Assembly (NCBI GenBank): GCA_905235505.1
Contig: CAJOMJ010000031.1
Coordinates: 18,816 to 82,815, forward strand
DNA: 64,000 nucleotides
Reading direction: 5' to 3'
Origin: Paludibacteraceae bacterium
Lineage (GTDB): Bacteria > Bacteroidota > Bacteroidia > Bacteroidales > Paludibacteraceae
This document shows, piece after piece, positions 13,850 through 41,630 of this stretch. Position numbers and translations under genes: made by a program. Position 1 is the stretch's first letter, and each line of letters starts with the position of its first letter. The notes beneath the pieces were generated by a model. It was not told the origin of the DNA, made no database searches, and saw only the letters and a program-made list of their open reading frames with translations.

Positions 13850-13869
13850 CCCATACCCCCGCCGACTCA

Positions 13870-13905: not shown

Positions 13906-13937
13906 CAGAGTTCACAGAACCACAAACGAACCATGCA

Positions 13938-19508: not shown

Positions 19509-20906
19509 TTACCATTTGTCATTACGAAATGGATATACCGGCATGCCATTTGTACAAAAAAGTGATGGGATAGCGTAATCTTTGAAACAATAGCGTACGG
19601 CTACTGGATGTTTAACGTATGCACTTCGTACTACAAGGTTCGTTTTTGTTCTAATGGCAGTAGCTGGATAAAACACTCTGTTTTCTCCAGCTATTTCAAA
19701 TCCCGTAACTGGTTGTCGAAGTAGTGCAATTCTTTCTATAGAACAGTTAAAAGTGATAATGCATGAATCACCCGTTATAGTCATATTTCGATAATATGGG
19801 ACATCAATATCAAGTCCATTATATCCGTATGTGTTACAGAGCGTAAAATAGGCCAATCTCTCTCCCACTTCGCGCTTCTTTGTAGGATGCAGGTTGAGGG
19901 AATCTCCCATATCAAACATTGGAATTAGCCAGACATTTGGCAGTTGTTTCGACATATCAAATTGTACCTCGCGAAGGTAACCGCAATTATATATTGTATC
20001 AGGATATTCATAAGGAGGTATCTCCACTGTATAAAATGGCAAGTCCTCAACATGCCAATCACCACGCCATTGCTGACATAACTGTGGAAACAGACGGCGA
20101 TACAAATCAGGAGTTTTGCGTCCTGATTCTCCTTGATACCACCATACTCCACGGATACTATAACCTGCTATCGGATAAATCATACCACGATATATACCAC
20201 ATGGGTTACGGTTTTTCGGATTATTTTCTTTTCCTATTTGTGGGATAATCAGTTCTGGTGCCACTTCCCGTACTCGTTCAGGACCAATCCACGCTTCAAT
20301 AGTTGAACCAGCCCAACTAGAATGAATAACGCCTATTGGAATATTCAGGCTTTTGTACAACTGAATGGCAGCATAGTATGCAACAGCGGAAAAAGAACCT
20401 GTCGTTTGCTGACTTGCCTGTTGCCAACGACCAATACAATCATCCTGCTTTGTTACGCTTGAAACATGTTTCTGAGAAAAAAAACGAATATAAGGATTAT
20501 TAGAGTTGGCAATAGCATCCAGTGATCCATCTGCCATTGCAACTCGAAACTGCATATTGGATTGTCCGGATGCCAACCAAACCTCCCCTACCAAAACATG
20601 ACTATAAGTCCTGACTTCGTCTTTGGCAGAGATTCTAATTGTATGTTCCTTAAACGATGCTACCGGTGTTGGTATAGTCAATGACCAGACACTATCTGCC
20701 TCAACAACAGTAGATTTATATCCCTTGAAGAACGAGGCAGATACCTTAATCATGGTATTAGGTGATGCTTTCCCCCACAAACGTACATCAGTCTGTTGCT
20801 GAAGTACCATACTATCAGCAAATATAGACGGCAATGTTAGTGATGCTGAAAAACCGATACCGGCCCATATGAAGGCCGGTATCGTACATAATATTCTAAG
20901 ATTCAT
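19509..20906 (-). CDS. SGNH-family sialate/carbohydrate O-acetylesterase
   Basis: A 465-residue exported esterase with signal peptide (to about residue 22). The N-terminal beta domain (LPSIFADSMVLQQQTDVRLWGKASP) and the SGNH catalytic block GQSNM, with the nucleophile Ser at 116, are typical of the 9-O-acetyl sialate esterase (SASA) family. Downstream are WAGSTIEAWI, GVWWYQGES and the candidate catalytic His in DSLNLHP. It removes acetyl groups from sugars; in plant-glycan loci these enzymes often act on acetylated xylan or pectin, so sialic acid is not implied. Last gene of the PUL operon; its ATG shares one base with the previous stop (TAATG). Confidence 0.88.
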   Translation of the reverse strand: MNLRILCTIPAFIWAGIGFSASLTLPSIFADSMVLQQQTDVRLWGKASPNTMIKVSASFFKGYKSTVVEADSVWSLTIPTPVASFKEHTIRISAKDEVRTYSHVLVGEVWLASGQSNMQFRVAMADGSLDAIANSNNPYIRFFSQKHVSSVTKQDDCIGRWQQASQQTTGSFSAVAYYAAIQLYKSLNIPIGVIHSSWAGSTIEAWIGPERVREVAPELIIPQIGKENNPKNRNPCGIYRGMIYPIAGYSIRGVWWYQGESGRKTPDLYRRLFPQLCQQWRGDWHVEDLPFYTVEIPPYEYPDTIYNCGYLREVQFDMSKQLPNVWLIPMFDMGDSLNLHPTKKREVGERLAYFTLCNTYGYNGLDIDVPYYRNMTITGDSCIITFNCSIERIALLRQPVTGFEIAGENRVFYPATAIRTKTNLVVRSAYVKHPVAVRYCFKDYAIPSLFCTNGMPVYPFRNDKW

Positions 20907-21679
20907 TATTGAATACGTATAATGTAATAGTTAACGGGTAATTGAGGATTGTAATGAGTATCATTAACCACCTCTTCAGCGACTACCTGTACTAACAAAT
21001 CATATACGGTCACACGTTGACCCGGAGTTATATTGGGAATGTTAACTGTCCCATATTGTTTATATATAACAGAATTAGAGGTACGCGACTCAATTACTGA
21101 TGTCGTTACACCTCCTTCCTTTTTAGCTAAATAAAGATACGGTCGTTGACCTGATGTTCCTTTATAACTCTGTGATTTCAAGAGAGGCTTTCCATTAGTA
21201 AGATTACGCATTTCAACTCGAAAACCTATTACTGAATCCTCTTCTGCCAATGTATTAAAAAGTGGCATAACGTCAAAGGAAACAAACTTTCCTTGACAAG
21301 CGTCCTTATAAGTAACAACTGAATCACACAGAATACCTGGAACAGCATGTGCAACCGAGTATACAGGATTTATTCCGTTTGCTATATAATGATCCATACC
21401 ATACACTACAAGTGCAAATAGAGAATCTATATCCACAGACGATATATAAAGGTTAAAAATAGCCGTATCAGGCTTGAAGGTTAATTCGGAAATATTAAAA
21501 TCTGAAATAATATCCCTACAATAGCCCGAATCAGATTTTAATTCTGTACCTGCATTGCCGACATACTTGTCACCCTGCTCTTTGGTAAAACTACCATAGT
21601 TGGAATTAATTGTCATATTCTCAGCCATTACAGCGACTGACATTCCAACGCAAATAAAAAGAATAAATAAGTTTCTCAT
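20906..21679 (-). CDS. Secreted PUL protein, DNRLRE/CBM96-like
   Basis: A 257-residue protein with signal peptide (to about residue 19, VMAE). I do not recognise a full-length family. The body (TAIFNLYISSVDIDSLFALVVYG and SYKGTSGQRPYLYLAKKEG) has the beta-rich layout of the DNRLRE/CBM96-like modules seen in its neighbours. The end is unusual: TPGQRVTVYDLLVQVVAEE then PVNYYIIRIQ, recalling a sorting or C-terminal strand. It lies between the frameshifted GH16-like gene and the acetylesterase and overlaps the latter by one base. A glycan-binding role is inferred from context only. Confidence 0.6.
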   Translation of the reverse strand: MRNLFILFICVGMSVAVMAENMTINSNYGSFTKEQGDKYVGNAGTELKSDSGYCRDIISDFNISELTFKPDTAIFNLYISSVDIDSLFALVVYGMDHYIANGINPVYSVAHAVPGILCDSVVTYKDACQGKFVSFDVMPLFNTLAEEDSVIGFRVEMRNLTNGKPLLKSQSYKGTSGQRPYLYLAKKEGGVTTSVIESRTSNSVIYKQYGTVNIPNITPGQRVTVYDLLVQVVAEEVVNDTHYNPQLPVNYYIIRIQ

Positions 21680-21721
21680 AAATTTAATATTTTAAAAGTT
21701 AAACATAAAGTTTTTGTGATG

Positions 21722-23310
21722 TTATTTAATAATCAAAGGTGCGCATACGCTTTCACCTAAATGATTTTTGAGGATTAAATATACAATCCCATTGTAATCA
21801 GGAAGATTGAAACTATTATTTTCAACACGACCTTTATTGATCAGATTACCTATGGGTGATACAATTTGAACCTCACACCCGTTATAATTACCAGATATAT
21901 ACACTTTTCCCGAAGCCGGATTTGGATATATATATAACATATTGTCTTCATTAGAGGTTCTTATTTCATCAATTGATGTGGGTACATAAGGATCCATAGC
22001 AAGATATGGGAATTGTGATTCAATCTCGAGAGAGTCCGGAACATACTGACGCCATGTAAGTAGCGATGCTGTATTTCCACCTGTTAGTTTTACACACAGG
22101 TCTACTACACCCGCACCCGAACGCAGTTCCTTATTGATAAACTTATGAAGATCCCAATTAACACGCACACCATAGAATCCTGGATTGGGAGCATTGATTG
22201 TTCCTATGGGCTTAAGATTCGCTTCACTCGGAGCATTGACAAAGGTAAGACTCCAAAGAGGATCCGGCATACCGGATTTCACCTGATATAGTGTCAGTTG
22301 CGTAGCATCTCCTTGATCATTACTCAAGATGAACATTGAGAAAGTGGCAACATCTATAGAGTCTTTCGGGTCATACTCAGAAATATCAAAGCGGAAATAT
22401 GCATCACGTTGGAATGTCGCATGTTTCTTGATATATCCAGTAGGCTTGTCATAAAATGTTAGTTCCGGTTGATTGCCATCAGCATACGTGTCAAAAGTCG
22501 GATAAATATTTCTTGCTTCTGGAGATTTTACCTTGACAGTATTTTGTCCGGTAGCAATACCCTTACTATTGTTACCATCAATCACAGATACAAGAGAATA
22601 TTTGGTTGTAACTATCGGATTCACAGCAATCTCGTAAGTGTTTGTTGTTATATCAGTTATTGTATGTTCCTCGTTACCTTCTTTGTAAGTGATTGTCCAT
22701 GGTGCTACTCCGCTCAGTGTAATTCTCAGAATAGCAGTTTCTCCTGCACCTATATAATGAAGATCATTGTCCAATATGGCAAATGATTCACGCGGGAGGA
22801 TACCATCAAATGACGGACTAAGCATCACCTTTTCACAAATAAAATCCCCTTTGCCTCCTATTTGAATGGCTGATATTTCCGATGCATCTATTTCGGATTT
22901 GTAGTTTAAATCCCATCCGGAACCCATAGCAGTGTGACCATATTCACCTTCAATGTTAGGATAGAAATACGGTTGTATTTTCTCTTCCTGAATTGGGAAT
23001 AATGCTACTGACACATAGTCGTCAGCATCTTTATGTGTTTCCACACGACCGGCAAGCAGATACATCTGACCATCATCATAATAACTTAGTTTCTTATTAG
23101 TCGGCTTAGCGGATATAGTAGATGCATAATATAGGCGATTACTACCGAAACCTGTTCTTATTGTATTGGCGGCATCTACGGCTGTACCGACTATTACTTG
23201 TCCATCTTCGTTAAGTAATGATATAGTAAACTCAGAATCTGTTTCCTTTGCAAAGATAGCAGAGAAGTAGAATATATTGTCTGAGGAGGTATTGATATTT
23301 TCATCAAGAG
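21722..23310 (-). pseudogene. 3' half of a frameshifted PUL gene, ends in T9SS sorting domain
   Basis: The open frame continues upstream of its first ATG (23065) through IALDENI and NIFYFSAIFAKE without a stop, right up to and past the end of the preceding gene. It has no signal peptide of its own. Domains in order: beta-rich module, Ig-like/SprB-like repeat (GVAPWTITYKEG), a DNRLRE/CBM96-like domain (about NIYPTFDTYADGNQPELTFY), and a C-terminal type A sorting domain (YIYPNPASGKVYISG). A sorting domain without a signal peptide, beside a gene with the reverse defect, strongly suggests one original gene. Restoring one base within about 23317-23345, for example in the A6 run, joins the two into roughly 1220 residues. 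Confidence 0.7.
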
Positions 23311-25389
23311 CTATTGTTTTTTGCTCGATAGACCACCCAATGTTTCATCGCATGCAGGATCGGCCATATCGGCTGATCTACGATAAAAACGAATATAATC
23401 TACAGCTGCCGTATTATTTATATCTGCTGCATCAAACGTTGACAAATCAATATTTAGCCCTACTTGTAAAGCCATTTTGTCACCTGCGTACCCTCCATAA
23501 TAGTGCCAATCTTCCTGTTCGTAATAACCATAAGCATTTTGAGCGACATCCTGATATGCCGAACCGGGAGCAGTAAGAACAGATATAAGATTACTTTCCT
23601 CAAAACCTGACATATTAGCAGCTTCTTTTACTATTTCTCCATTTATAAAATAACGAACATTACGGGCTGTAATTTCTACACCTAATATTATATAGTCGTC
23701 CAGATGACGATTGTTGACAGAATCGACCATTACGTAATTGGTCTTCGTAGGATCTATTTCAAAAATATAATACGTGGTTTTCCAGTCCGTAAGGGAGTAG
23801 TGAAAATCATAGATATTATCACCTTTATATGTTACCTTGGGAAATGTCATCCCATAACGTTGTTGATATTTGGAGCTCAAATGTGTGTCGTATGTCTGAG
23901 CACTGAAGGTAAGGTCGGTGTTGTTTACTTTCATTGGTCTTACACGCATCTCCATGTACATATCTGTTTCTGTTGGCATCGCAGATACTAATTGTATTTG
24001 AGATGTAGAGTACGAAGAACCTGATTGTTTTACTCCAAGTAAAATCTCTTCTCCGTTCATACTCACATCGCCGTTCTTTACAGACCACATTTGTGTGTTA
24101 AGTTCATCCGTCCCAAACTCATCTCCTTTGTAAAGCACCCAGTCATCGGCTCCGCTATTGAGCATTGGTTTAGGAGCTGGAAGAATGGTAACAACAGCAG
24201 TTCCAATTGTTTGAATTGTCGTGTTATTTGCATCCGATGCCAATACGAGTGAATATGTCGTGGTTGCTGTAGGACTAATAGGTATCAGTATTTCATTCTT
24301 CATGATGCTTGTCCCAGAATATTGGTTACCATCTGTACCTGAAATAGTATATGAAAACGGAGCTACACCAGAAAAGTTGACTTTAAGATTGACTTGCGTC
24401 CCTTGATAGGTTTTGTTGTTACCTGATAAAAAGGCTTGGGGTTGGATTACATCGTATATTGCAATACCATCAACTGAAAGTTCTTTCTCCTTGTCATAAG
24501 CACTTATGAGAGTATATGTGGTATTCTCTGTCGGTTGTACCTCGAAGGAATATTCATACATTTGAATATCTTTGCATTCGAATGTATTTTTGCCGTCTGT
24601 ATATAAAAACTTAAACGGAGGAACACCATTGGTGGGAAAATACACATGAACTGTATCTTTCTCACCTGCAAAAATCTTGCGCCCGGAGCTGATTGATACA
24701 ATTGGTTTCTCTTCGAATAAAAATAATCCGGGACGGAAAGAATTATTGCCTTCGGAAGAATAGAAAAATACAGAGCAATCTACTTTATAATCAGCATTTG
24801 AACCTAATAGGAAATATATTTTCTCATTTGTATTGATATGCTTGTTTACATACTCTGTTATATCAAGGAATTTATAAGTCATAGAGTCGTTCTTGTCGAT
24901 TTCAATTTCCCCTACCAATTCCATATCAGTTTCTTTATATACCAATGGATATGTACCTGTATATGAGAACCCATCTCCTGCAGGATCTCCATCAGGTGAA
25001 CCATAGAAAATACTCCAACATGTTGGAGTCTGTATTGCCCGTTTTATAGCATAAACAGCCAACGGATAGGTCGTGATTGCAGATTTTTTCCAAAAATCAT
25101 CACTGGTATTATAAGCGTAGGGAACCAACCCCAGTAACACTTTTTCGCGCATAGAGGACGCTTCGCTCATGTCGAAGCCAACAATACTCTGACGCCAATA
25201 ATTCATTTTGTTGCAAACTTTAAGAAAACCATCAGTCTCTTTCATTGACGTTTTTTGAGAATAATCAATAAATGTGTCAAAAAACGCACCCAGAGTGTCT
25301 TTTGCAACTGTAGCATCTGCCTTTTCTGCCGAAACAAGGTTACCTACTCCATAAAGGAGAATAGAAATAATAAATAATGTTCGTTTCAT
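23311..25389 (-). CDS. 5' half of the frameshifted PUL gene: CBM96-like, Ig repeats, GH16-like domain
   Basis: A 692-residue product with signal peptide (to about residue 21). A DNRLRE/CBM96-like module comes first (AFFDTFIDYSQ to LFLFEEKP, about 30-235), then two Ig/SprB-type repeats (TNGVPPFKFLY, SGVAPFSYTIS), then a concanavalin/GH16-like domain (DEFGTDELNTQMWSV, NVRYFINGEIV, VDYIRFYRR, about 440-680). I see no ExDxxE catalytic motif, so this domain may bind rather than cut glycan. The frame stops at 23311 directly after an A6 run while another frame stays open, so the protein lost its type IX sorting domain. It is the gene after susD in the PUL operon. Confidence 0.75.
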   Translation of the reverse strand: MKRTLFIISILLYGVGNLVSAEKADATVAKDTLGAFFDTFIDYSQKTSMKETDGFLKVCNKMNYWRQSIVGFDMSEASSMREKVLLGLVPYAYNTSDDFWKKSAITTYPLAVYAIKRAIQTPTCWSIFYGSPDGDPAGDGFSYTGTYPLVYKETDMELVGEIEIDKNDSMTYKFLDITEYVNKHINTNEKIYFLLGSNADYKVDCSVFFYSSEGNNSFRPGLFLFEEKPIVSISSGRKIFAGEKDTVHVYFPTNGVPPFKFLYTDGKNTFECKDIQMYEYSFEVQPTENTTYTLISAYDKEKELSVDGIAIYDVIQPQAFLSGNNKTYQGTQVNLKVNFSGVAPFSYTISGTDGNQYSGTSIMKNEILIPISPTATTTYSLVLASDANNTTIQTIGTAVVTILPAPKPMLNSGADDWVLYKGDEFGTDELNTQMWSVKNGDVSMNGEEILLGVKQSGSSYSTSQIQLVSAMPTETDMYMEMRVRPMKVNNTDLTFSAQTYDTHLSSKYQQRYGMTFPKVTYKGDNIYDFHYSLTDWKTTYYIFEIDPTKTNYVMVDSVNNRHLDDYIILGVEITARNVRYFINGEIVKEAANMSGFEESNLISVLTAPGSAYQDVAQNAYGYYEQEDWHYYGGYAGDKMALQVGLNIDLSTFDAADINNTAAVDYIRFYRRSADMADPACDETLGGLSSKKQ

Positions 25390-25434
25390 ATTGGTAAAAT
25401 TTTAAGTTTAAGTATCTATTAAGAATTATTCATC

Positions 25435-27012
25435 TTAATATCCTGGATTTTGTTGTCCGCCAATAGCGGTATTCGCATCCATTTCAGATTGAGGTATCGG
25501 CCATAGATAGTGATGGGGGAGAAACATACGATTGTCATCAATAATGTATTTTTCCCATACACCTCCTTCATATGCTGCAGGATCATATCCGTACGCAGGC
25601 TCGTTCAAAACATCTTCTGCTATACGCCAACGTCGGAGATCATCATAACGAGTATTTTCAAAAGCCAACTCGCAACGACGTTCACGACGCATTATATCAC
25701 GCAACTCTTCGCGAGTAGGATTGGCAATTATATCAGTAATGTTAGGCATTCCTGCTCGGTTACGGACATTGTTCAACAGACTTATCGCTTCCGTACGTTT
25801 AATATCATATAAACTATCTGATTCTATTATACATTCTGCTTGCATAAGAAGAGCATCTGCGTAACGGTACACTATGATGTTAAGCGTTGAACGTTTGTTA
25901 GAATTGGTAATATCTGAATAAACAAGATATTTTTTTACCTTTAAACACGAGTTGTAATATGTTTTGTCCTTGGCCACTGGTTTATATACTTTATCTCCCC
26001 AATTGTCCATAGGTCGTGTTAGTGTCACTTCCATTCGGTTGTCACGATTTTTGAACATGTCTCCAAACTTGCGAGGAGGAAACTCTGGCGGAGTACCGCG
26101 CAACTCATAATAGTCTTCTGCCAAAGAAACGGTTGGAATATAACCACCAGACCATTCTTTTATGTAAGAATAGAAAGAATAAGAAGAATTGCTATTCGAG
26201 GGATTAGAATATTGAATGTCAAAGATGACTTCAGCATTATTTTCGTTTTGAGGATCAAAAATGGCCGAATAATCAGTAAGTAGTTGGTATTTGCCTTGTT
26301 CATCCAAGGCCTTCAAAGCTGAATACGCTTCCTCATATCGTTTATTATAGAGAAGTACTCGTGCTTTTAACACCAAGGCGGCCCCACTCGTCGCACGACC
26401 TTTATAATTGACAGGAGCATCATCATTAAGGCACTCAATAGCACGGTTTACATCGGTTAATATAAACTCCAGCGTCTCTTCAGCTGTGCTACGAGGTAAA
26501 TTATATTCCCTTAAACTCTCCTTCGGTTCATCTATCAATGGTACTCCGCCAAAGTAATTAAGAAGGTCAGCATAGAAATATGCTCTAAGGAAGCGAGCCT
26601 CACCTTCATATTGCAATCTGTGAGCATCAGAAATAATAATATCAGGACGATTCTGCAGGTTGTAAATAACCAGATTGGCACGGGCAATACCTTGATAATC
26701 TTTTGTCCATTTTTCTTCAACGTATGAAGTTGATGGATTTAAAGCTCCTTTGGTAAAGGCAAGCCATTCCGAACCACTTGCTGATGAATAGACACAATTG
26801 TCACTGATAACTTCAGGGTTTAATATAAAAGAGGCTCCTCCCTGAGTGGTTAATACTTGATATATGCCATTTACCGCTTTTTCAACTTCTGCAGCAGTGT
26901 TATAGTAAGTCGTTGGAGACAAACTATCTTGTGGAGTCAGTTCAAGAAAATCACTGCATGCTGTCAGCATTATCAATGATATGGACAATAAAAATATATA
27001 ATATTTCTTCAT
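25435..27012 (-). CDS. SusD/RagB-family glycan-binding lipoprotein
   Basis: A 525-residue outer-membrane lipoprotein, lipidated Cys at residue 19 (MLTACSDFLELTP, the usual SusD opening). Family features include SPTTYYNTAAEVEKAVNGIYQ, EARFLRAYFYADLLNYFGGVPLI with its TPR-like helices, and the C-terminal RRERRCELAFENTRYDDLRRW and LWPIPQSEMDAN blocks. It forms the hinged lid on the SusC barrel and captures oligosaccharide at the surface. It starts 33 bases after susC. Confidence 0.95.
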   Translation of the reverse strand: MKKYYIFLLSISLIMLTACSDFLELTPQDSLSPTTYYNTAAEVEKAVNGIYQVLTTQGGASFILNPEVISDNCVYSSASGSEWLAFTKGALNPSTSYVEEKWTKDYQGIARANLVIYNLQNRPDIIISDAHRLQYEGEARFLRAYFYADLLNYFGGVPLIDEPKESLREYNLPRSTAEETLEFILTDVNRAIECLNDDAPVNYKGRATSGAALVLKARVLLYNKRYEEAYSALKALDEQGKYQLLTDYSAIFDPQNENNAEVIFDIQYSNPSNSNSSYSFYSYIKEWSGGYIPTVSLAEDYYELRGTPPEFPPRKFGDMFKNRDNRMEVTLTRPMDNWGDKVYKPVAKDKTYYNSCLKVKKYLVYSDITNSNKRSTLNIIVYRYADALLMQAECIIESDSLYDIKRTEAISLLNNVRNRAGMPNITDIIANPTREELRDIMRRERRCELAFENTRYDDLRRWRIAEDVLNEPAYGYDPAAYEGGVWEKYIIDDNRMFLPHHYLWPIPQSEMDANTAIGGQQNPGY

Positions 27013-27045
27013 ATTTATATTGTTTTTATAAGTGTTTTTATAAGT

Positions 27046-30000: not shown

Positions 30001-30171
30001 AAATTTGCCATTAACATCTGTTGTTGTACCAATAATAGTTCCTTTGCACAATACTGTAGCGCCTATCACCTCCAGTCCTTCAGAATCTTTCACCACCCCG
30101 CTTACAGTTCGGTCTGCATAAACTACTACCACCGACAGACTCAGCAATAATATGAGTATCGACTTCTTCAT
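27046..30171 (-). CDS. SusC/RagA-family TonB-dependent outer-membrane transporter
   Basis: A 1041-residue protein with signal peptide, carboxypeptidase-regulatory-like domain (VSGVVKDSEGLEVIGATVLCKGT, split here: SGVVKDSEGLEV near residue 23), TonB-box-like LEEVVSVGYGTQRKVNLTGAI, plug domain (IRIRGISSI, PLVIIDGVEGNLNEVDTKDIESM, AAIYGNKAAAGVILITTR) and a 22-strand barrel ending RIYSVGAEIMF. It imports oligosaccharides with TonB energy, paired with the next gene. Its ATG overlaps the stop of the 1238-residue gene by four bases, so all are probably co-translated. Confidence 0.95.
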   Translation of the reverse strand: MKKSILILLLSLSVVVVYADRTVSGVVKDSEGLEVIGATVLCKGTIIGTTTDVNGKFVLTVPDKATEITISYIGHKTATINITKKDVVNVTMEQDAVMLEEVVSVGYGTQRKVNLTGAIENVDMSSIGDRTLTNASLALQGQVSGVLVVQESGQAGADDATIRIRGISSIENNNAPLVIIDGVEGNLNEVDTKDIESMTVMKDASSAAIYGNKAAAGVILITTRRGKEDMFQVNYSFTESFQQPTRLPEVVGAKDYLMLWNEANRNDGTAERWDLETEYAKYDNGTKRSFNWYDLYFKTAPMQKHYLNLILSAGNVKTSTSFNYMDQKGMLYGTDYNRFNYRTNIEATTKNKKVKLEMHIAGYRDKTGDNTASSQSVLNKINSAPPYTPFVNPDSDPNDLFSYIRKVTDEGTIYSGYANYIGYKENNGGKTTIRNRATCNFALVYEPIKGLNFEARYAFGFLNNSMKNFLPVMTLQNDVNNESGGAISSARAELTELKQESYTQNLNLLAKYDNVFKQSHHFGALLGFSLEDYKLNGTTVKVSNFVTSVGVLDYGEDVTKPKETISNRRALSVFGRLNYSYKERYLVEFNLRGDGSSRFRKGHRWGLFPSASVGWRISQEEWYEPAEKVLSNLKIRASYGMLGNEAISSYYAAYDKLESDVTYSFEGKDYNAIRLTELADKNTTWEKTSQADVGLDMQWIGRLNMSLDLYYKHTYDILARVQMTSLLGTTVLPYQNIGEMENKGWELSLSYKDKLYRDLHFWVNANISGQANKFLKLNNTDQDYVFNAVAGEMFSGYNMIITKVGYSYGSYYGYQVDRIFQVDDFIWQNNSDPSIPHEARNYTLKNEYPTQAENPRPGDLKFRDLDQNGEINDDDRTIIGKQLPDIMYSFGLGLNWKGLEFSCFFQGVAGGQVYTGGYLVSPFYNSAPVLSNYLNNRWTIDNPSTEYQRVYIDKTKQKIVSDYYVEDASYLRLKSIELAYTFPQKWMSKIRVKKFKIFGTIQNAWTWSKTKSFDPEKMGNVVSSDFHPQARIYSVGAEIMF

Positions 30172-33884: not shown

Positions 33885-33886
33885 AA

Positions 33887-35430
33887 TTATCTATATAGAT
33901 TTAATGTTTTACTTTTTTCATCAGTTCCATCATAACGATGCTGTAATACTGATATCTCTATCCTTTTAGCATTATACGGTAAAATTATGGTTTGCTCAAA
34001 TGGGAATATTTTGGAGGGCATTGTGACAAAAGGCTGACCATCTATGGAATAAGTAAACTCTGCATTTTTGTAGCCAGCATCCTTTTTGTTCACATACATA
34101 TAAAGTGTGGATTTGTCTTCAACATTTATTATAACACCCGTGAGACCACTTTCTGGATCATAAACATAGTCTCTCGACTCCGCTACTACCTTCTCCAATG
34201 GGATCTCTATCATTTGAATCCCCTCTGACGGCACATCAACAGAAATCACCTGATTGGAAATCATCAAACTGCTATCTACTACGGTAATCGTACCCTTCTG
34301 GGATATAGATGACTGATTTAATAACACAATATAGAGCCCTTCATCGTTATATCCCGAAATGTAATTTAACTGGTTGAGATTTGTTTTGACAAGACCCTGC
34401 GGCATATACAAACGAACATTGCGATGATTATACATTCGGCCCAAGTTGTTACCATACCATTTACTCTTCAAATATCCGAAACCTTCTATATAATCTGAAG
34501 GAAAATCCACCTGCCCTTTTGATTTTACATATGCATCTGTAACAAGATAGTCAAGCAGAATATTAATATGAGGCCATATATGATTATAATGGAAAGAATT
34601 TACACTAAGTTTGTCATATTCTAGATATGGATAATCTACACCCTCATAAACTGAAGTGCGCTCGGTATTGATATGATAGCCAGGAAAGTTGCGGTACCTA
34701 CCAATCACTGCACTTCGCGCAATATCCATCAACCATTGATCATTTGTAAGATACCCCACACGAAGCATCCATGGTGCATAATTTACCATAAATATTCCGC
34801 GATGTCCGGTAGAAGTACCCGAACTTTCAGAAGTCAAGCCAATTTCACTTAAACGCCAGTTTGGCACAGTATCTCTTTTTGCACGCATTCTTGCATATCC
34901 TTTGCCTTTAAGATACGGATACCAAGGGGCCCAACCCTCTGGATTAACTATTGTTGCTCCTTCCGGAATCGTAGGACACATCCACGTAAACATTGCATAT
35001 TGGCGCAAGGCCTGGTGAGCAGCTTCCAAATATCGCTTTTCTCCTGTTTGTTCATATAGACCTAACAAGCATGCCCAATCTGGCACAAAAGAATCCCAAA
35101 AGAAATAATAACCATTATTAAAATCTGTCTGCTTGGTTTCGACACGGGTAAGAAGATATTCATCAGCACCTTTACATGCCTGATCCAACATTTTCTTGTC
35201 TCCCGTGGCTACATATATAGCCAACGCATTCTGCCAATTTGCTCCGCTCTCGGACTCTGACAAGTTACGTATGCGCGAGGAATTATATTCTTGCTCAGCA
35301 AGTTGCAGGAAGAAGTGGTTTCTACATTTTGTGATTTTATAAAGCAAAGCCAATTCACTAATGGGAGCACAAGGACCATTGAGTTGACGAGACGGTGATT
35401 GTATTTTTTGAGTAGAATCAACAAAAACTT
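33887..35430 (-). pseudogene. 3' part of the frameshifted paralogue of the 1238-residue protein
   Basis: The largest ATG frame is 488 residues from 35353, but the coding sense begins at the frameshift near 35430 (FVDSTQKIQSPSRQL precedes the ATG in frame). It contains GHRGIFMVNYAPWMLRVG, AVIGRYRNFPGYHIN, RTSVYEGVDYP, HYNHIWPHI and GQVDFPSDY, matching the neighbouring 1238-residue protein block for block. It ends after an Ig-like segment (FTYSIDGQPFVTMPSKIFPFE) and lacks the CBM96-like and sorting domains of the neighbour. Read alone it would have no signal peptide. Confidence 0.75.
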
Positions 35431-36540
35431 TTCTCTTGATATCATGTATTCAATCATGGGATACGCACGTTCTTCCAATATATCGTTCCTATTTGTTATC
35501 ATCGAAATCTGAAGTGGGTGTAACGATGATACATTTTTGACTGCCCCTGGAGCATCGGTAGAATAATTGCAACCCTTCAACGAATCTATGAACATGGAAT
35601 ATCGGCTCATGGCATAATCTATCATGTTATCCATTGTGGCATTTAGTGATATATCCATATTGACGCGATAATTATGAAATCCACATAATTCACGTGATAT
35701 CTGTTCATATGCTTGACTTAACGATAGATTGCTCTCGTAGAGATGTACCTTAAAAGTCATCGGCTGGTTAGGTGTGCAATATGACTCTGCACCACCTAAT
35801 ACAGGAGCATATAATTGAGGTTGCAAACGACCATTCATTGTGCGTAGTGTAACCCCAAACCGACTATTCATCATATTAGGAAGGGGATTGAAAGGGAACT
35901 CAGAGGAGTCTGCCACCACTCCAATGGTCTTTTCATTCATTGAAAGCAGTGTTGTGGGAATCGGACAACGATAGGCTAATGTCATATATGCACGTTGCGG
36001 AACACGTAACTCTTGCCAAATCAGTGGTTGCCAGATTTCATCTGCCTCATCTATATTACATGACGGAGCTCCTGTATATGCTATCGAATAGAATCCTTTT
36101 TTGGATGGAATGAATTTCCATTTCAATTCATCATCTCGGCGCTCTGCACTCAATTGACCTACTTCACATGGCGCAAATACCCATATCTCACATCCTTTCC
36201 CCCGACGAACACAACGTGCTTTCAACTCATATACTTGCCCCGCTGCGGCCACTTCCGGGGTTAGCATATCTTGACTAATTGAAAGAATTTGATCATCAAA
36301 ACCATCTCCAAAATGATCTTTTTTGCGTTGAGTGTGTTGTAAAGTATTTGTACTATCAATGGAGTGCCAAACTGCTACATTATACGGAACATGGGCTATG
36401 CCAGCTGGTTTTGCTGCCAGTTTCGGATCTGTAGGAGAATAAATCACAGTAAAATTAGGAGCAAAATCGGATTTCTTTGCTTCTATATTTACAACTAACA
36501 ATCCGAATAATATCGGTAAAAAGAATTTTACGTATTTCAT
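35209..36540 (-). CDS. 5' part of the frameshifted paralogue
   Basis: A 443-residue reading with signal peptide (LLVVNIEAK). Its N-terminal beta-rich domain and first helices (AYEQISRELCGFHNYR, MDNMIDYAMSRYSMF, DAPGAVKNVSSLHP, ILEERAYPMIEYMISRE) correspond to residues about 1-390 of the 1238-residue neighbour. After SREK the frame goes wrong (LLILLKKYNHRL) and ends at 35209. One base restored in the A4/T5 runs at 35424-35433 rejoins the downstream part into about 884 residues. Its ATG overlaps the stop of the FAD oxidoreductase (ATGA). Real inactivation and base-calling error are both possible. Confidence 0.75.
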   Translation of the reverse strand: MKYVKFFLPILFGLLVVNIEAKKSDFAPNFTVIYSPTDPKLAAKPAGIAHVPYNVAVWHSIDSTNTLQHTQRKKDHFGDGFDDQILSISQDMLTPEVAAAGQVYELKARCVRRGKGCEIWVFAPCEVGQLSAERRDDELKWKFIPSKKGFYSIAYTGAPSCNIDEADEIWQPLIWQELRVPQRAYMTLAYRCPIPTTLLSMNEKTIGVVADSSEFPFNPLPNMMNSRFGVTLRTMNGRLQPQLYAPVLGGAESYCTPNQPMTFKVHLYESNLSLSQAYEQISRELCGFHNYRVNMDISLNATMDNMIDYAMSRYSMFIDSLKGCNYSTDAPGAVKNVSSLHPLQISMITNRNDILEERAYPMIEYMISREKFLLILLKKYNHRLVNSMVLVLPLVNWLCFIKSQNVETTSSCNLLSKNIIPRAYVTCQSPRAEQIGRMRWLYM

Positions 36541-38819
36541 AACTCATCTATTATTATTCCAAAGACTGAAGCAGGCACATTCCTCGATGGATGGACTAAT
36601 TCAATAACTAAATCTGATACTTCCTCTGCAAATAATACTATATTATTGTACGCAAGATGATTATCTGTCTTGTGATATAAAATCTTGTTTGAAGAGTCCT
36701 TAATATAATATTCGCGCACGCATAAGGGTGATATACTATCATAGTGCCCCATTTGTATTGGTTCCAATGCTTGATCATAATCACAATCAAAGAATATGCG
36801 AATGCCTTTTATCTTTGTTGCTTTAGGCATATGTATCCTCAGCCTTGGATTGTTATCTTGCAAATCTGCAACCCAGCAATTAGTACCTTTGTACGGACGA
36901 TAATATGAATTCATCAATTCTTTTGTAGAATATATCAACAATGGAGAGGAAAAACGCAATGCAAAATTGTTATTATTTGGTCTGCGTTTAGGACACCAAA
37001 ATTCAAAACTTTCCACTCCTATACCATCCGGAGGTGTTTGTCTCCCATAATTTGATACTGCTGGATTGATATGGTTATAAACAGACGTTAATCCCGGCAA
37101 ATACATGTCCGACAAACCTATTTTTATCTCTGCATTTGCCATAAAACATATAAAGACAAATGAAGATTCTGGTAAGCGTTGCTCGCACGGGATCTCAACC
37201 CACTGCTCACCTTTTTTTACTGATAGTTCATATCTTACCAATACCACTTCTGGAGTATAGTTCCCTGATTTTTTCGAGGCCCTTATCTCTATCTGCAAAG
37301 TAGTATCACTATGGCTAAGTACCGGGATACTTATTGATGAAAGATATTCTGTGGCAAATAGCAATTGTGCTGCCGAGTAATTTAACTGACGCCATTGACC
37401 GTTAAAAGGCAGTTCCTTGAGACTGAAAGTTGAACTTGCAGAAATCTGTAGATTGCTCTGAGGCAGTTCTGCATTAGGAATGAAGTGACCTATTTGAATC
37501 AGTTTTTGTTGCAATTCACCTATACGATTGTTGAAATACAAATCCTTTGGCATCTCTGCATATTTCTTGGCTAAACTGGTGGCCATACCTGCCACTTGTC
37601 CTGACAATGCGGCTGTACAAATCACTCTCGTAGAACCATGGGCTATTTGAGTTACGCTTATTAAACGACCGCCAAGAAATAGATTGTCAATGTCACGACT
37701 AATATAACAACGATATGGTATTTCATATATCCCCTTAGAATGATATTGGTGACAGCCTTCCTCATTACTATAAACAGGATTCACAGGATGAAGATCGATT
37801 GCCCAGCCACCGTATGTAACAGTATCATCAAAATGTGTCTGCGATATAATATCATTCTGAGTTAATGTATAATATCCAATAAAACGGCGCGATTCACGCT
37901 TCCCGGGTATTGTTCCTACCCATTCCAACGTATATGTACTCATATCCGGATAACGCCCACTGTTCTTAATATAGTTCCATACACCATAAACTATCCGCCA
38001 TAACTCATATTTTATCTGCTCTGTATCATGAATTGTGTCAAGATGACCACCATACTCAAGCCACCATAACTTACAACCATATAGTTTTGAATTGAAGTAT
38101 CTTGGATTACTAAGTTTTGTGACTAACGTTTCAATCTGATTTGGTCGAAGCGCAAAATCAGGAACTACGAAATCTACATTGTGCCCTGTGTCGCGTGTAT
38201 AAAACAAAATGGAATCGCCTAATAAATTGTTATTTGACAACTTCTCTGGTGCCATTCCTTCCTTCGTTAATATTTTCTCTTCAGGCCCAATTCTATATGA
38301 AGCTCCAGCAAGATAGCCTACTATTCCATCGCCAGAACAATCGGCGAAATAAGTCGCGGAAAGTGAATATGATAATTGATTGAGTGAATTAAATGCCAAT
38401 ACGCCGTTTATTGTTTTATCGTCTTTCATCACTACATCATACACACACGTATTGAGATATAATGTTATATTTTCTTCTGCAAGTACCTTGTCCATCAATA
38501 CCATATCAAACAAAACAGGATTACCCTCCTTGTTTCGATACTGATTTTCAAGTAAAATCTCATCAATAACACCACCTTCGCGAGACCATCGATTATTATT
38601 CCCCATGTGAGATGTCGCACCTAATGCCCAAACGCGTATCTCACTGGATGCATTGCCTCCCAAAACAGGGCGATCCTGCACAAGTGCTACACGTACACCT
38701 TCACGTGCGGCAGTAATGGCACAACATGTGCCGGCCATCCCTCCTCCTACTACAATCAAATCATACGTCGCTTCACATGTAGGAAGTGTACGCTTAATGT
38801 GTTCGTCAAATAATATCAT
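36537..38819 (-). CDS. FAD-dependent oxidoreductase, cytoplasmic, PUL-associated
   Basis: From the ATG at 38819 (760 residues), chosen because it overlaps the symporter stop as ATGA and gives a normal start; a longer frame to 38897 is inside the symporter gene. YDLIVVGGGMAG (residues 19-30) is the dinucleotide-binding GxGxxG, followed by GGNASSEIRVWALGA and ADCSGDGIVGYLAGASYRIG, typical of the FAD_oxidored (PF12831) group common in Bacteroidota PULs. The C-terminal 350 residues form beta-rich, discoidin-like modules. There is no signal peptide, so it should act on sugars or derivatives inside the cell. The substrate is unknown. Confidence 0.85.
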   Translation of the reverse strand: MILFDEHIKRTLPTCEATYDLIVVGGGMAGTCCAITAAREGVRVALVQDRPVLGGNASSEIRVWALGATSHMGNNNRWSREGGVIDEILLENQYRNKEGNPVLFDMVLMDKVLAEENITLYLNTCVYDVVMKDDKTINGVLAFNSLNQLSYSLSATYFADCSGDGIVGYLAGASYRIGPEEKILTKEGMAPEKLSNNNLLGDSILFYTRDTGHNVDFVVPDFALRPNQIETLVTKLSNPRYFNSKLYGCKLWWLEYGGHLDTIHDTEQIKYELWRIVYGVWNYIKNSGRYPDMSTYTLEWVGTIPGKRESRRFIGYYTLTQNDIISQTHFDDTVTYGGWAIDLHPVNPVYSNEEGCHQYHSKGIYEIPYRCYISRDIDNLFLGGRLISVTQIAHGSTRVICTAALSGQVAGMATSLAKKYAEMPKDLYFNNRIGELQQKLIQIGHFIPNAELPQSNLQISASSTFSLKELPFNGQWRQLNYSAAQLLFATEYLSSISIPVLSHSDTTLQIEIRASKKSGNYTPEVVLVRYELSVKKGEQWVEIPCEQRLPESSFVFICFMANAEIKIGLSDMYLPGLTSVYNHINPAVSNYGRQTPPDGIGVESFEFWCPKRRPNNNNFALRFSSPLLIYSTKELMNSYYRPYKGTNCWVADLQDNNPRLRIHMPKATKIKGIRIFFDCDYDQALEPIQMGHYDSISPLCVREYYIKDSSNKILYHKTDNHLAYNNIVLFAEEVSDLVIELVHPSRNVPASVFGIIIDEL

Positions 38820-40465
38820 TTTCGTGTCAATAATGTTATTGCTATTCCAAGTGCAATCAGTATTATTCCTATACCTGTTACAATCCAAAAGGTCCATCCG
38901 GATGTTAACATCCCTAAAACCATTATCATTAGTCCGGTTAAAGCAATACCGATACCAATAACCTTGAAACTATATCTGTTTGCGACAGCTTTCTCCGAAT
39001 CTTGTTGAGAAAATGCCCTGTCTGCTATCATTTGCTCACTAAAAGCGGCATGCTCGTCTTCCTGCTTACGTATGGCAAAATATATTTCACATATAACAAG
39101 TAAAGCCACTGGAACGCTAACACCTACAACCATTTCTTGTGTGCGATTCAAGCTAAATCCGAACAAGGGAGTTATGAACTTGAAAATTGCGTTGATGATA
39201 AGACTTATCAAGGTTGTAGCGAGTACTGTATGTCTATTCTGCCGCCGCGAAAATAGTGTCCATATAACAGGTAAATACAATGGTACGCCTGTAAGTGCTG
39301 CCACACTTATAACCACATTCACTATCCCACCCATCTTTGGTATTAAAAGAGCAACTATCACAGCCAAGATCCCAAAACCTATGGTCGATAGACGCGCTGT
39401 AAGCATTAGCTTTTTGTTTGATGCATTTGGATTCAAACGTTTGTAAATATCGTTAGTAAATACGCCAGATGAGATGTTTAATGCACCATTAAGCGAACTG
39501 ATTGTAGCGAAGACCATTCCACCTAACATTAATCCTAATATGCCTCGGGGGAGCACTTCCTTACACATAAGTAAATAGGCACCTTCGTCTGCCAATCCCT
39601 CTAAACTACCATTGCAAACTCGATATATCATAGGAGGTAACATCCATAGCAAAGGACAAATAAGATACAAACAACCAAATAGTAATCCAACTTTACGAGC
39701 ATCTGTCTTTGTTGCCACACTCGTATAACGTTGAACATAACCCCAGTTTCCTCCAAGAAAAATGAAATTGTATAAACAAAAGGCTATAAGAAAAGCCCAT
39801 GTGTATTCTGCATTAACAGGCGAGAAAAAATTATCAGGAGCTTGCAGGACAAAAGCGGTTATACCCCCCACCTTATTGAATGATAAGGGCACGACAATCA
39901 ATACGGCGGCAGATAGAATAACAAACTGTAATACATCGGTTACAAGTACTGCCCACAAACCACCCATGGCAACATACAGAATACCTATACCTCCTAAAAG
40001 CAAGATTGCAACTTGAAGAGATAACCCGGTAGACACTTCTACTATCTTTGCAACAGGATAAAGGAATGCTCCTGTAGTAAAAAGAGATACCAGCAAGAAA
40101 AGATATGTGTAAATTACTCTGGTGTTACCGCCCAGGCGTTCGTTAATATATTCGGCTACAGTAAGAACTCTGGTACGTTTCCATCGTGGTGCAATTAATA
40201 AAGCCACCCCAAAACCAGCTATACACATTCCCATCTGAATAGATATTGATACGAACCCATGAGAATAAGCAATAGACCCCCATACAACGAAAGTTCCTGC
40301 TGAGAAAAATCCCATGAACAAAGACAATCCTGCCATCCACCATGGAACAAATCCTCCTGCTGCATAAAAACTTTTCATATCAGTACCCTTTCGAGTAAAC
40401 GATAGTCCTGCAACTACTATCCCGCAGCAAAACATGAGGATGACTATATAATCTAATATTTCCAT
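38816..40465 (-). CDS. Sodium:solute symporter (SSS family)
   Basis: Start taken at the ATG at 40465 (MEILDYIVILM, 549 residues), because the longer frame to 40516 would begin upstream of the predicted -7 element. About 14 membrane helices are visible. SSS motifs include GGFVPWWMAGLSLFMGFFSAGTF near residue 35, RTRVLTVAEYINERLG and GGLWAVLVTDVLQF. It would import a monosaccharide, sugar acid or disaccharide with Na+. First gene of the PUL operon and translationally coupled to the FAD oxidoreductase, suggesting that the imported solute or its product is that enzyme's substrate. Confidence 0.9.
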   Translation of the reverse strand: MEILDYIVILMFCCGIVVAGLSFTRKGTDMKSFYAAGGFVPWWMAGLSLFMGFFSAGTFVVWGSIAYSHGFVSISIQMGMCIAGFGVALLIAPRWKRTRVLTVAEYINERLGGNTRVIYTYLFLLVSLFTTGAFLYPVAKIVEVSTGLSLQVAILLLGGIGILYVAMGGLWAVLVTDVLQFVILSAAVLIVVPLSFNKVGGITAFVLQAPDNFFSPVNAEYTWAFLIAFCLYNFIFLGGNWGYVQRYTSVATKTDARKVGLLFGCLYLICPLLWMLPPMIYRVCNGSLEGLADEGAYLLMCKEVLPRGILGLMLGGMVFATISSLNGALNISSGVFTNDIYKRLNPNASNKKLMLTARLSTIGFGILAVIVALLIPKMGGIVNVVISVAALTGVPLYLPVIWTLFSRRQNRHTVLATTLISLIINAIFKFITPLFGFSLNRTQEMVVGVSVPVALLVICEIYFAIRKQEDEHAAFSEQMIADRAFSQQDSEKAVANRYSFKVIGIGIALTGLMIMVLGMLTSGWTFWIVTGIGIILIALGIAITLLTRK

Positions 40466-40486
40466 TTTACCTGCTTGAAATTTCTG

Positions 40487-40516
40487 CAAAATTAAACATT
40501 TATTCTCAGAAAACAA
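40487..40516 (-). promoter_or_regulatory. PUL operon promoter
   Basis: On the minus strand TTG (40516-40514), 19 bases, TAATTTTG (40494-40487). Transcription would start about 15-20 bases before the symporter ATG. Confidence 0.75.
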
Positions 40517-40539
40517 TACGTTTTATGGTAAAAAATCAT

Positions 40540-40553
40540 CGTAAACGTTTACG
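40540..40553. promoter_or_regulatory. LacI-family operator
   Basis: CGTAAACGTTTACG, a perfect 14-base palindrome with the central CG of LacI/GalR-family sites. It lies between the two divergent promoters, upstream of both -33 elements, so one regulator could control both the PUL and itself. Confidence 0.8.
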
Positions 40554-40557
40554 AAAT

Positions 40558-40588
40558 TTGGTGTATTCCAATATATTATGTACTTTTG
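40558..40588 (+). promoter_or_regulatory. Promoter of the LacI-family gene
   Basis: TTG (40558-40560), 20 bases, TACTTTTG (40581-40588). Start of transcription falls near 40595, about 20 bases before the ATG at 40614. Confidence 0.75.
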
Positions 40589-40613
40589 TCCCAACTTAGT
40601 AAAACCACTCAAC

Positions 40614-41630
40614 ATGAAACATTCCACAACAATAAAAGATATTGCTAAATACTTGGGTATATCTGTCGCCACTGTGTCTCGGGCATTATCAGACCAATGG
40701 GATGTTAGCCCACAAACGCGTGCCAAAGTATTAGAAGTCGCTAAATTGCTTAATTATCAGCCTAACCTTTCGGCTCAAAGACTCTGCCAGCAACAATCGC
40801 ATCTAATTGGACTCGTTGTTCCGGAACTTGAGAATTCTTTCTTCCCACGTATTATAGTAGGATTACAATCTATTCTTGAAGAAGCTGGTTATCTGCTCCT
40901 TATTACTAATTCCAATGAATCTTCTGCTATTGAAGAGAAGAATATAAAAACTCTCGAGCGTAATCGCGTGGATGGCATAATCTTGTCTGTCACACAAGAA
41001 GGAGCTAATAAGCAAATATACGAAGAAATCATTGCTAATGGCACTCCGCTTGTTTTGTTTAATAGAATCTGTGATATTGACTCACCTAAAGTTATTATTG
41101 ACGATTATCAAATGTCCAGTTTGGCTGTTGAACACCTTATTAAACAAGGATGCAGAAAGATCGCTCATATTGCCGGACCAGAACAACTTTCTATTACAAA
41201 CTCCCGAAAACAAGGTTATATTGACACGCTAACAAAACACAAAATTACTATTCCAAATGATTATATTATTCATGCCGGAATAATGCAAGAACAAGGATAT
41301 ACTGCTATGCTGCAGTTATTACAAACTAAACCAAGACCTGATGCAGTGTTCTGTGTCAACGACCCTGTTGCTATAGGAGCCATGAAAGCTATAAAACATT
41401 TTGGACTGAAAATACCCAAGGATATTGCCATCGTAGGTTATTCTGAATCCAGATCCGCATGCCTTGTAGAACCTAATCTTACAAGCGTAGCACAGCCTCT
41501 TTTTGAGATAGGTAAGAATGTTGCTGAACTCATGTTAAAAAAAATTGAAGGCAAGATGAAAGAAAATCCCACGATAATCCTTCATGCACAGCTAAATATT
41601 AGAGAGAGCTCTTTGCGAAAAAAAGTATAA
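40614..41630 (+). CDS. LacI/GalR-family transcriptional regulator of the PUL
   Basis: From ATG 40614 (338 residues); the longer frame from 40578 overlaps the -7 element. The DNA-binding domain is residues 1-60 (TIKDIAKYLGISVATVSRAL, helix-turn-helix; hinge YQPNLSAQRLCQQQ). The ligand-binding periplasmic-protein-like domain follows (IGLVVPELENSFFPRIIVGLQ, RVDGIILSV, AHIAGP, DAVFCVNDPVAIGAMKAI, IAIVGYSES). It probably senses a sugar released or imported by the PUL and acts at the 40540 palindrome. Such a regulator is less usual for SusCD loci, where hybrid two-component or ECF sigma systems dominate. Confidence 0.92.
   Translation: MKHSTTIKDIAKYLGISVATVSRALSDQWDVSPQTRAKVLEVAKLLNYQPNLSAQRLCQQQSHLIGLVVPELENSFFPRIIVGLQSILEEAGYLLLITNSNESSAIEEKNIKTLERNRVDGIILSVTQEGANKQIYEEIIANGTPLVLFNRICDIDSPKVIIDDYQMSSLAVEHLIKQGCRKIAHIAGPEQLSITNSRKQGYIDTLTKHKITIPNDYIIHAGIMQEQGYTAMLQLLQTKPRPDAVFCVNDPVAIGAMKAIKHFGLKIPKDIAIVGYSESRSACLVEPNLTSVAQPLFEIGKNVAELMLKKIEGKMKENPTIILHAQLNIRESSLRKKV

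Follow-up and report, generated by a model that had tools for sequence, protein, structure and literature searches.

The DNA analyzed here, a 64,000-nt window from a Paludibacteraceae bacterium (GCA_905235505.1, contig CAJOMJ010000031.1), carries a SusCD-type polysaccharide utilisation locus, in which adjacent SusC and SusD homologues lie with glycan-active genes. Two neighbouring proteins of this locus, termed member a and member b, are the subject of this study. The features are listed by position in the window.

16239..18494, minus strand: GH3 glycosidase, downstream (Pfam N- and C-terminal GH3 domains and an Fn3-like domain)
19509..20906, minus strand: SASA-type carbohydrate acetylesterase (Pfam SASA 59.8 bits; PDB relatives 9h4u, 9ega and 7kmm)
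20906..21679, minus strand: 257-aa protein, unassigned (no Pfam match at E ≤ 1)
21722..23065, minus strand: 447-aa CBM96 protein (CBM96 35.9 bits; Por_Secre_tail 23.4 bits against a cut-off of 27)
23311..25389, minus strand: 692-aa protein (sub-cut-off CBM96 match of 20.8 bits)
25435..27012, minus strand: SusD homologue (28 PDB sequences at E ≤ 1e-5, best E 2.3e-41)
27046..30171, minus strand: SusC homologue (PDB 8aa4, a SusC homolog, E 1.9e-137)
30168..33884, minus strand: member a, 1238 aa (CBM96 is the only curated family above cut-off)
30339..30836, minus strand: CBM96 of member a, residues 1017-1182 (Pfam PF24517, 60.7 bits against a cut-off of 26)
31095..31784, minus strand: predicted C-terminal beta domain of member a, residues 701-930 (AlphaFold model, DSSP)
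31785..33041, minus strand: predicted (alpha/alpha) toroid of member a, residues 282-700 (AlphaFold models, Foldseek)
31815..32123, minus strand: conserved blocks of member a first seen in an earlier note on this DNA, residues 588-690
33042..33821, minus strand: predicted N-terminal beta domain of member a, residues ~22-281 (AlphaFold model, DSSP)
33887..35353, minus strand: 3' piece of member b (aligned by tblastn to the L029 homologue at 44% over 544 aa)
35209..36540, minus strand: 5' piece of member b (aligned by tblastn to the L029 homologue at 47% over 363 aa)
35413..35422, minus strand: frameshift site splitting member b (overlap of the two tblastn segments)
36537..38897, minus strand: FAD oxidoreductase (PF12831) of the ~760-aa type (Pfam FAD_oxidored 285.2 bits)
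38816..40516, minus strand: SSF sodium:solute symporter, a putative sugar importer (Pfam SSF 126.8 bits)
40578..41630, plus strand: LacI-family regulator, divergent from the operon (Pfam LacI 56.5 bits, Peripla_BP_1 125.2 bits)

From the SSF gene through susC, neighbouring genes overlap or almost touch. The earlier note, made from the letters alone, had the coordinates and reading frames right, and the SusC, SusD, acetylesterase and FAD oxidoreductase neighbours that it named were all recovered by PDB sequence or Pfam matches. It omitted the flanking GH3 gene and the recurrence of the FAD oxidoreductase as a partner. The GH3 gene is separated from the SASA esterase gene by 1014 bp, and its membership of the operon is uncertain. 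SusC and SusD proteins serve in the uptake of glycan fragments during polysaccharide utilisation, and the PDB matches of the SusD homologue are mostly named SusD homologs. The 447-aa CBM96 protein, with its sub-cut-off match to a T9SS tail, is a probable surface glycan binder. A by-eye idea that the C-terminal part of the 692-aa protein is GH16-like found no support when searched. As the earlier note had claimed, a Pfam scan of ten operon proteins, covering the operon outside SusC and SusD, found no standard endo-acting GH or PL.

The unusual blocks that the earlier note had seen in the 1238-aa protein and its broken neighbour are present in both. With member a as query, the two pieces of member b were matched at 253 bits (E 1.8e-75, 38% identity) and 169 bits (E 6.9e-50, 41% identity), and the two members are thus homologues of 38-41% identity. 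The pair have four blocks in common: GQVDFP, identical in the two proteins; NHLWP / NHIWP; GHRGVFTANYAPLMLRIG / GHRGIFMVNYAPWMLRVG; and NVIGRYRNFPGYHIN / AVIGRYRNFPGYHIN, where the large protein has N rather than A at the first place. Judged by these alignments, such sharing is far beyond chance. Member b reads as a full-length family member broken by a single frameshift near 35413-35422, because both pieces align with the intact L029 homologue and meet at this site; the open frame of the 3' piece extends back to about 35422. The frameshift may be genuine or an assembly error. Member a has a signal-like N-terminus by eye and is presumably secreted.

In the family tree, member a belongs to a clade of four rows whose SH-like support is 100%, and members of this clade carry CBM96 (named DNRLRE in NCBIfam) in 5/5 distinct genomes. 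Their placement makes the two window genes old paralogues: member a comes from the CBM96-bearing clade and member b from the general clade, where it is represented by a fragment of 488 aa with a long branch, a kind of join prone to a tool-flagged artefact. A recent tandem duplication was rejected, as the two window genes lie in different supported sets of the tree.

We examined whether the family is recognised elsewhere. The ~900-aa core gave no Pfam, NCBIfam or PDB-sequence match beyond a weak or partial level, and by the measure of these three collections the family is not recognised. The profile searches that the earlier note had called for thus yielded no clear match to an existing family, and its claim that the proteins match no known enzyme family holds in these collections for all but the C-terminal CBM96, which it had missed. 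Family members gave weak matches to GH127, GH88, GH9, pectate lyase and C5-epimerase models. Matches to acyl-CoA-binding protein (best E 0.054) were taken as chance, and those to GH76 (best E 2.4e-4), which cover ~90 positions, as toroid likeness. No recognisable description of the family or of its FAD partner was found in the literature searched (open-licence PMC papers).

A contig scan with the single 1238-aa protein as query returned no relative; relatives came from a second contig scan in which alignment A1 was the query. By this profile scan, 169 relatives were detected and 80 retained, and the 77 loci kept belong to Bacteroidota, Verrucomicrobiota, Lentisphaerota, Hydrogenedentota, Planctomycetota and Pseudomonadota. 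Profiles A2 and A3 were built from 52 of the 77 loci and the window, with truncated, near-identical and other loci omitted by choice. Residues 588-690 of member a include R603, R624, Y631, H632, N634, R637, H661, H664 and D674. Judged by one MAFFT alignment of divergent proteins and a cut-off of our own, the only polar positions conserved in all four clades are T511, R603, R624, H664 and D674, together with position 684, which is T in the window protein where the family has S. In the most distant clade, Q and N take the place of the candidate carboxylates D340 and E375, and E580 falls below the conservation cut-off in the small 'mid' group; these changes weigh against the cleavage reading set out below.

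AlphaFold modelling (pLDDT 90.8, pTM 0.92) predicted a beta-sandwich, an (alpha/alpha) toroid and a beta domain in this order, in agreement with the toroid that the earlier note had thought likely. The predicted architecture is like that of PL27 and other toroid sugar enzymes. When the whole model was searched with Foldseek, the 50 matches listed were all sugar-active enzymes, including GH101, GH95, GH97, GH127, GH36 and PL27, with TM-scores ≤ 0.40 among those listed and some matches covering a beta domain only. For the toroid alone, the 50 matches listed were mostly sugar-active (GH9, PL27, PL2, GH76 and epimerases, which we presume to be of the AGE type) and included some lanthipeptide synthetases and LanC-like proteins; none had E < 0.001. 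In this comparison with PL and GH toroid folds, which the earlier note had proposed, TM-scores among the toroid matches listed were ≤ 0.5; the low structural scores weigh against the cleavage reading set out below.

The ~760-aa FAD oxidoreductase is a recurring gene partner of the family, and this is the strongest new result of the analysis. By tblastn, it was present at 39 of the 77 family loci, and at 32 of the 51 loci of at least 15 kb. Across 20 genomes that were hand-picked and hold the family by selection, 19 of the 21 full-length copies lay within 10 kb of a family match, compared to about 0.16 expected; for the short FAD type, the figure was 2 of 11 copies. The other two full-length copies (G702, G704) were away from any family match. 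Within an order sample of 295 genomes, full-length FAD (E < 1e-200) was found in 7, the family in 4 and both in 3. Counter to a strict link, FAD-SSF pairs were also found in four order genomes without a family match (G257, G006, G262, G132), the FAD gene and the family pair of G008 are on different contigs, and Sphingopyxis and Luteimonas genomes with the family gave no FAD match at E ≤ 1e-50. The window FAD oxidoreductase is probably cytoplasmic, since no signal peptide was visible by eye.

Among other neighbours, GH95 and SSF were each detected by tblastn at 15 of the 77 loci, and relatives of the SASA-type esterase at 7 to 13 (two queries). Scanned neighbours elsewhere included GH97, GH106, GH43, GH2 and GH31 proteins and GDSL esterases; these GH families, like GH95 and GH3, are mostly exo-acting. 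The interpretation given in the earlier note is supported in part, the backbone cleavage that it proposed being a candidate activity. For Bacteroidota loci, the Pfam tallies take in 97 of the 103 non-redundant ORFs without a label (6 dropped) and, for other loci, representatives only of 252 ORFs; the underlying ORF-based lists also contain fragments, duplicates and, in GC-rich loci, antisense ORFs, and one recurrent cluster is a mix of GDSL and GH97 proteins.

Since the family is unrecognised in the collections searched, occurs in several phyla and often lies beside one type of flavin enzyme, it probably represents a complex-sugar-cleaving enzyme of a kind not yet described. Building on what is established, namely that the family exists, how it is predicted to fold, how the genes are ordered and that one FAD enzyme type is linked to it, we consider it somewhat probable, at slightly better than even, that this three-domain toroid family cleaves, most likely hydrolytically, a glycan that is decorated and often acetylated, with import by SusCD and SSF followed by a FAD-dependent step. 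In favour stand the confident toroid model, the mostly sugar-active structural matches, the weak profile matches of members, the setting among SusC/SusD, esterase and CBM96 genes, the glycosidases near relatives and the FAD partner. We infer glycosidic cleavage, the cell locations and the order of steps as follows. Member a, with its CBM96, would cleave the polymer or large fragments outside the cell, while the acetylesterase would strip acetyl groups; SusC/SusD would carry fragments to the periplasm, where member b would perform a like cleavage on shorter pieces; the SSF symporter would bring the small product into the cytoplasm, and there the FAD flavoprotein would oxidise or reduce it before ordinary catabolism. 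More tentatively, and with the balance somewhat against it, the family may found a new class of glycan-cleaving toroid, chained with the importer and the ~760-aa flavoprotein, whose released sugar needs a flavin redox step. If true, a flavin-dependent route of glycan catabolism would be common to Bacteroidota and Verrucomicrobiota; no description of such a route was found in the open-licence PMC papers searched. Unnamed glycan enzymes are a main gap in reading bacterial diets, and with a coherent family in several phyla, a confidently predicted fold and a recurring partner, the substrate and the role of PF12831-type flavoproteins in glycan use become directly testable. Demonstration of the activity would define a new enzyme family, and demonstration of the FAD step a new catabolic step.

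The earlier note had allowed for a lyase or a hydrolase. We regard a PL27-like polysaccharide lyase, which would attack a uronic acid bound in the toroid cleft by beta-elimination via the conserved R624, H664, Y631 and H661, as unlikely, although several observations speak for it. Among the 50 whole-model matches listed, the highest TM-scores (0.31/0.40) belong to the PL27 enzyme BACCELL_00875 (5nok), 5nok and 5no8 are top by query length among the 50 toroid matches listed (0.46), and R624 and H664 are conserved in the four clades, whereas D340 and E375 vary. These two structures are, however, absent from the PDB-sequence matches up to E 10. Furthermore, GH88/GH105 enzymes, which usually follow lyases, are seldom near the family: in 18 of the 20 FAD-linkage genomes, 12 above-cut-off matches were found on contigs shared with the family, of which one lay within 10 kb and one more within 20 kb (distances were taken at 13 places chosen by eye, those 12 and one on another contig). 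Five sub-cut-off GH88 matches ~2 kb from family matches sit in long open frames sized and placed like members of the distant clade, which themselves give weak GH88 matches. Because GH88/GH105 genes near the family are so few, the lyase option is weakened and we infer hydrolysis rather than beta-elimination.

Still less probable is that the toroid proteins epimerise, isomerise or bind sugars and do not cleave them. Cellobiose and GlcNAc 2-epimerases, with mannose isomerase, account for many of the 50 toroid matches listed, and weak C5-epimerase C-terminal matches were found; the large set of invariant polar residues argues against this reading, and exported-looking CBM96 members beside SusC/SusD and exo-glycosidases would suit cleavage better. 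It is also doubtful, to much the same degree as for the lyase, that the family is already in CAZy and simply not covered by Pfam, NCBIfam and PDB, in which case the find would be ordinary annotation. This is compatible with any of the other readings, and a family spread across several phyla may have been noticed; against it stand the lack of a clear relative in those three collections and of a recognisable description in the literature searched.

Hydrolytic cleavage by the toroid family remains our preferred reading, and its members were compared with known systems, membership of GH127, GH95 and PL27 by sequence being rejected. GH127 (Beta-AFase-like, PF07944) shares the toroid, with weak matches in 21 of 53 members and an hhalign probability of 80%, but hhalign aligned only 115 of 424 columns (GH127 side 117-258), did not cover the conserved Cys/Glu region, and left the invariant Cys of A5 (304, 370 and 371; 7 sequences) outside the alignment. 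No GH127 match at the curated cut-off ran along the catalytic domain; matches in the member scans were partial and below cut-off, but in a further scan member b of G008 was flagged as marginally over it, with 24.3 bits (26.2 with neighbours) against a cut-off of 24.9 over 99/376 positions; the score of this protein in one member scan was 23.2 bits. GH95-type enzymes have a beta-sandwich followed by a toroid, and GH95 (2eab, which we take to be GH95) and related glycosidases and phosphorylases are among the best whole-model Foldseek E-values listed; their TM-scores, by contrast, are ≤ 0.2, neither the two window proteins nor any relative scanned matched PF22124 (the GH95 catalytic domain), and GH95 occurs here as a neighbour gene. 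A further comparison concerns the esterase and not the toroid family: the operon SASA protein matches 7kmm, a presumed CE20-type acetylesterase (E 4.4e-63). In PMC8245568, 7KMM is named once and the CE20 founder is described, and 7kmm is presumably the CE20 xyloglucan esterase. Finally, BACCELL_00875, a PL27 L-rhamnose-alpha-1,4-D-glucuronate lyase, is described in PMC8377490 as acting by beta-elimination and as combining a beta-sandwich at its N-terminus with an (alpha/alpha)6 barrel. In the model of the window family, a predicted beta-sandwich and a predicted (alpha/alpha) barrel follow in like order. By contrast, no sequence match to 5nok or 5no8 was obtained up to E 10 with profiles A1, A2 and A3, and the window family differs in its extra C-terminal beta domain, its CBM96 in the clade of member a, its FAD partner and the few GH88/GH105 genes nearby.

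Member a (1238 residues) and its neighbour, member b, were found to represent a real protein family that is unrecognised by Pfam, NCBIfam, PHROGs and PDB sequences, the libraries covered. An absence of recognised identity had been suspected in the earlier note, and the searches agreed, returning weak or partial matches to the core. For member a, CBM96 was the single Pfam match, NCBIfam detected this domain as DNRLRE (41.6 bits) together with one match below the cut-off, and no match was found in PHROGs. When 53 toroid domains were searched with Pfam, weak GH127-type matches were detected in 21 (best E 9.4e-6), and GH9, GH88, C5-epimerase and an unrelated model were each matched weakly by one domain. 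In a separate Pfam search, one member (b of genome G008) marginally passed the GH127 cut-off. NCBIfam gave weak matches to lanthionine synthetase in two toroid domains and to aceric acid hydrolase in one. The best profile match among PDB sequences was to GH76 (~90 residues, E 2.4e-4), and profile-profile comparison with GH127 (7 sequences) aligned 115 columns at 80% probability.

The (alpha/alpha) toroid fold guessed at the outset was borne out by AlphaFold prediction, with a mean pLDDT of 90.8 and pTM of 0.92 for residues 1-935 of member a (87.1 and 0.89, respectively, for the toroid alone). By Foldseek, the full model had its best E-value with GH101 (1e-9, TM 0.20), followed by GH95, GH97, GH127, GH36, phosphorylases and PL27, the last with the top TM-score among the best 50 rows (0.31/0.40). 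The toroid alone retrieved GH9, 2-epimerases, GH76, PL27, PL2 and lanthipeptide synthetases, among others, with no E-value below 0.001. Residues invariant across the 53 rows of the family alignment (52 of 77 loci plus the window) included R302, N304, N310, Y337, D340, K346, E375, R380, E565, E580, D610, R624, Y631, H632, N634, R637, H661 and H664.

The operon encoding the pair and its flanks were organized as follows.

38816-40516, minus strand: SSF symporter, first gene of the operon
Next, minus strand, in order: FAD oxidoreductase, split member b, member a, SusC, SusD
23311-25389, minus strand: 692-residue protein following SusD, with a CBM96 match below the cut-off
Next, minus strand, in order: 447-residue CBM96 protein, 257-residue protein
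19509-20906, minus strand: SASA-type acetylesterase, last gene of the operon
Operon head, divergent: LacI regulator
16239-18494, minus strand: GH3 glycosidase, downstream of the operon

Neighbouring genes from SSF to SusC overlapped or were almost in contact, and the SusC and SusD identities were borne out by comparison with PDB sequences. A gap of 1014 bp separates the esterase from the GH3 gene, which may be part of the operon. PDB matches of the esterase were 9h4u, 9ega and 7kmm, the last of which is presumably the CE20 xyloglucan acetylesterase described in PMC8245568, a paper that names 7KMM once. The conserved His site of the esterase reads NLHP; in the five homologues shown it is DLHP or DIHP (three), NIHP (one) or TVHP (one). 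Residues 405-692 of the 692-residue protein, its C-terminal region, are without family assignment. A neighbouring plus-strand group (10934-16133), perhaps iron-related, encodes an imelysin-type peptidase, a di-haem oxidoreductase and a cytochrome c assembly protein.

The sequence blocks described earlier as shared were present in members a and b alike, and the two proteins were homologous, with the pieces of b scoring 253 and 169 bits. Member b is a full-length family member save for a single frameshift near 35413-35422; on the Paludibacter contig L027, with the identical order SSF, FAD, b, a and SusC, b is unbroken. In a FastTree tree, the clade of member a comprised four rows (window, L027, L028 and L012), and member b, represented by its 3' piece, was placed in the general clade. 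CBM96 was found in these four proteins and in a G096 protein (45% to member a) absent from the tree, and three of the five had a T9SS tail below the cut-off. Thus, members a and b are probably old paralogues that differ in export features, a difference that fits one presumably secreted and one presumably periplasmic enzyme.

Relatives were detected in 3 other genomes among 295 sampled from the order and, with the toroid profile (E <= 1e-10), in 1 other among 395 sampled from the phylum, where a single-protein search also detected distant members in 2 genomes. In the phylum of the Opitutaceae genome G702, 13 of 240 genomes had a match, a count that includes G702 itself and G701, which had been preselected. 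When genome contigs were scanned with a profile, 184 pattern matches were obtained, 169 of which encoded relatives; the best 80 of these were kept, giving 77 loci that belong to Bacteroidota, Verrucomicrobiota, Lentisphaerota, Hydrogenedentota, Planctomycetota and Pseudomonadota. Searching the fetched loci with a hidden Markov model built from the family alignment yielded 121 ORFs, counting fragments and duplicates. These were binned by score, and the bins were compared with a 112-row FastTree tree. Each of the two lowest-scoring bins (14 and 12 rows) was set apart from all other rows by a branch with SH-like support of 100%, and the separation was nearly complete for the core and middle bins. 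The most distant group was linked to the core by profile-profile comparison (E 2.2e-24). T511, R603, R624, H664, D674 and position 684 were conserved past the chosen cut-off in all four groups. Three superfamily groups adjoin in Bacteroidota loci L041, L045, L051, L055, L060, L063 and L096; a GDSL esterase ORF lies between two groups in L041, and no ORF lies between groups in L060.

The FAD oxidoreductase is a strong partner gene of the family. By tblastn it was detected in 39 of the 77 loci (32 of the 51 of at least 15 kb). At E <= 1e-50 it was present in 18 of 20 whole genomes selected as holding the family. In these chosen genomes, 19 of the 21 full-length copies (>700 bits) were within 10 kb of a family match, compared to ~0.16 expected; a shorter FAD type was this close in 2 of 11 copies. 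Conversely, 28 of 39 family matches had a full-length FAD within 10 kb. Among the 295 order genomes, full-length FAD (E < 1e-200) was found in 7, the family in 4 and both in 3. The link is not obligate, since FAD-SSF pairs occurred in four order genomes (G257, G006, G262 and G132) in which the family search gave no match, FAD and the family pair were on different contigs in G008, and the Sphingopyxis and Luteimonas genomes among the chosen 20 had the family with no FAD match. Of the four loci with these FAD-SSF pairs (L110, L111, L112 and L114), three had a LacI gene; in the two scanned, L110 and L112, the pair adjoins GH43, GH95-like, GH97 or esterase genes, and the flavoprotein may therefore serve more than one glycan-release enzyme.

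Other neighbours included GH95 and SSF (each in 15 of the 77 loci), and Pfam searches of 97 unlabelled neighbours in Bacteroidota loci detected GH97 (5), GDSL esterase (5), GH2 (4), beta-helix (4) and sulfatase (3). Representatives of recurring neighbour clusters were GH106, GH43, MFS, GFO/IDH/MocA and GH31. Glycosidases thus differ between loci while the family and FAD recur together, from which we infer that the family sets free one particular product, which would then be handled by an importer and the FAD oxidoreductase.

The earlier note had proposed the family as the best candidate for the backbone-cleaving enzyme. It is most likely a glycan-cleaving toroid enzyme, for which acetylated, side-chain-rich glycans would fit as candidate substrate. 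Among 18 genomes searched, 17 encoded GH88/GH105; of the 12 above-cut-off matches on contigs with a family match, one was within 10 kb of the family and one more within 20 kb. Five sub-cut-off GH88 matches ~2 kb from family matches were in long open frames fitting the distant clade of the superfamily. The scarcity of GH88/GH105 near the family argues mildly against a classical lyase, and the putative enzyme is more likely a hydrolase than a lyase.
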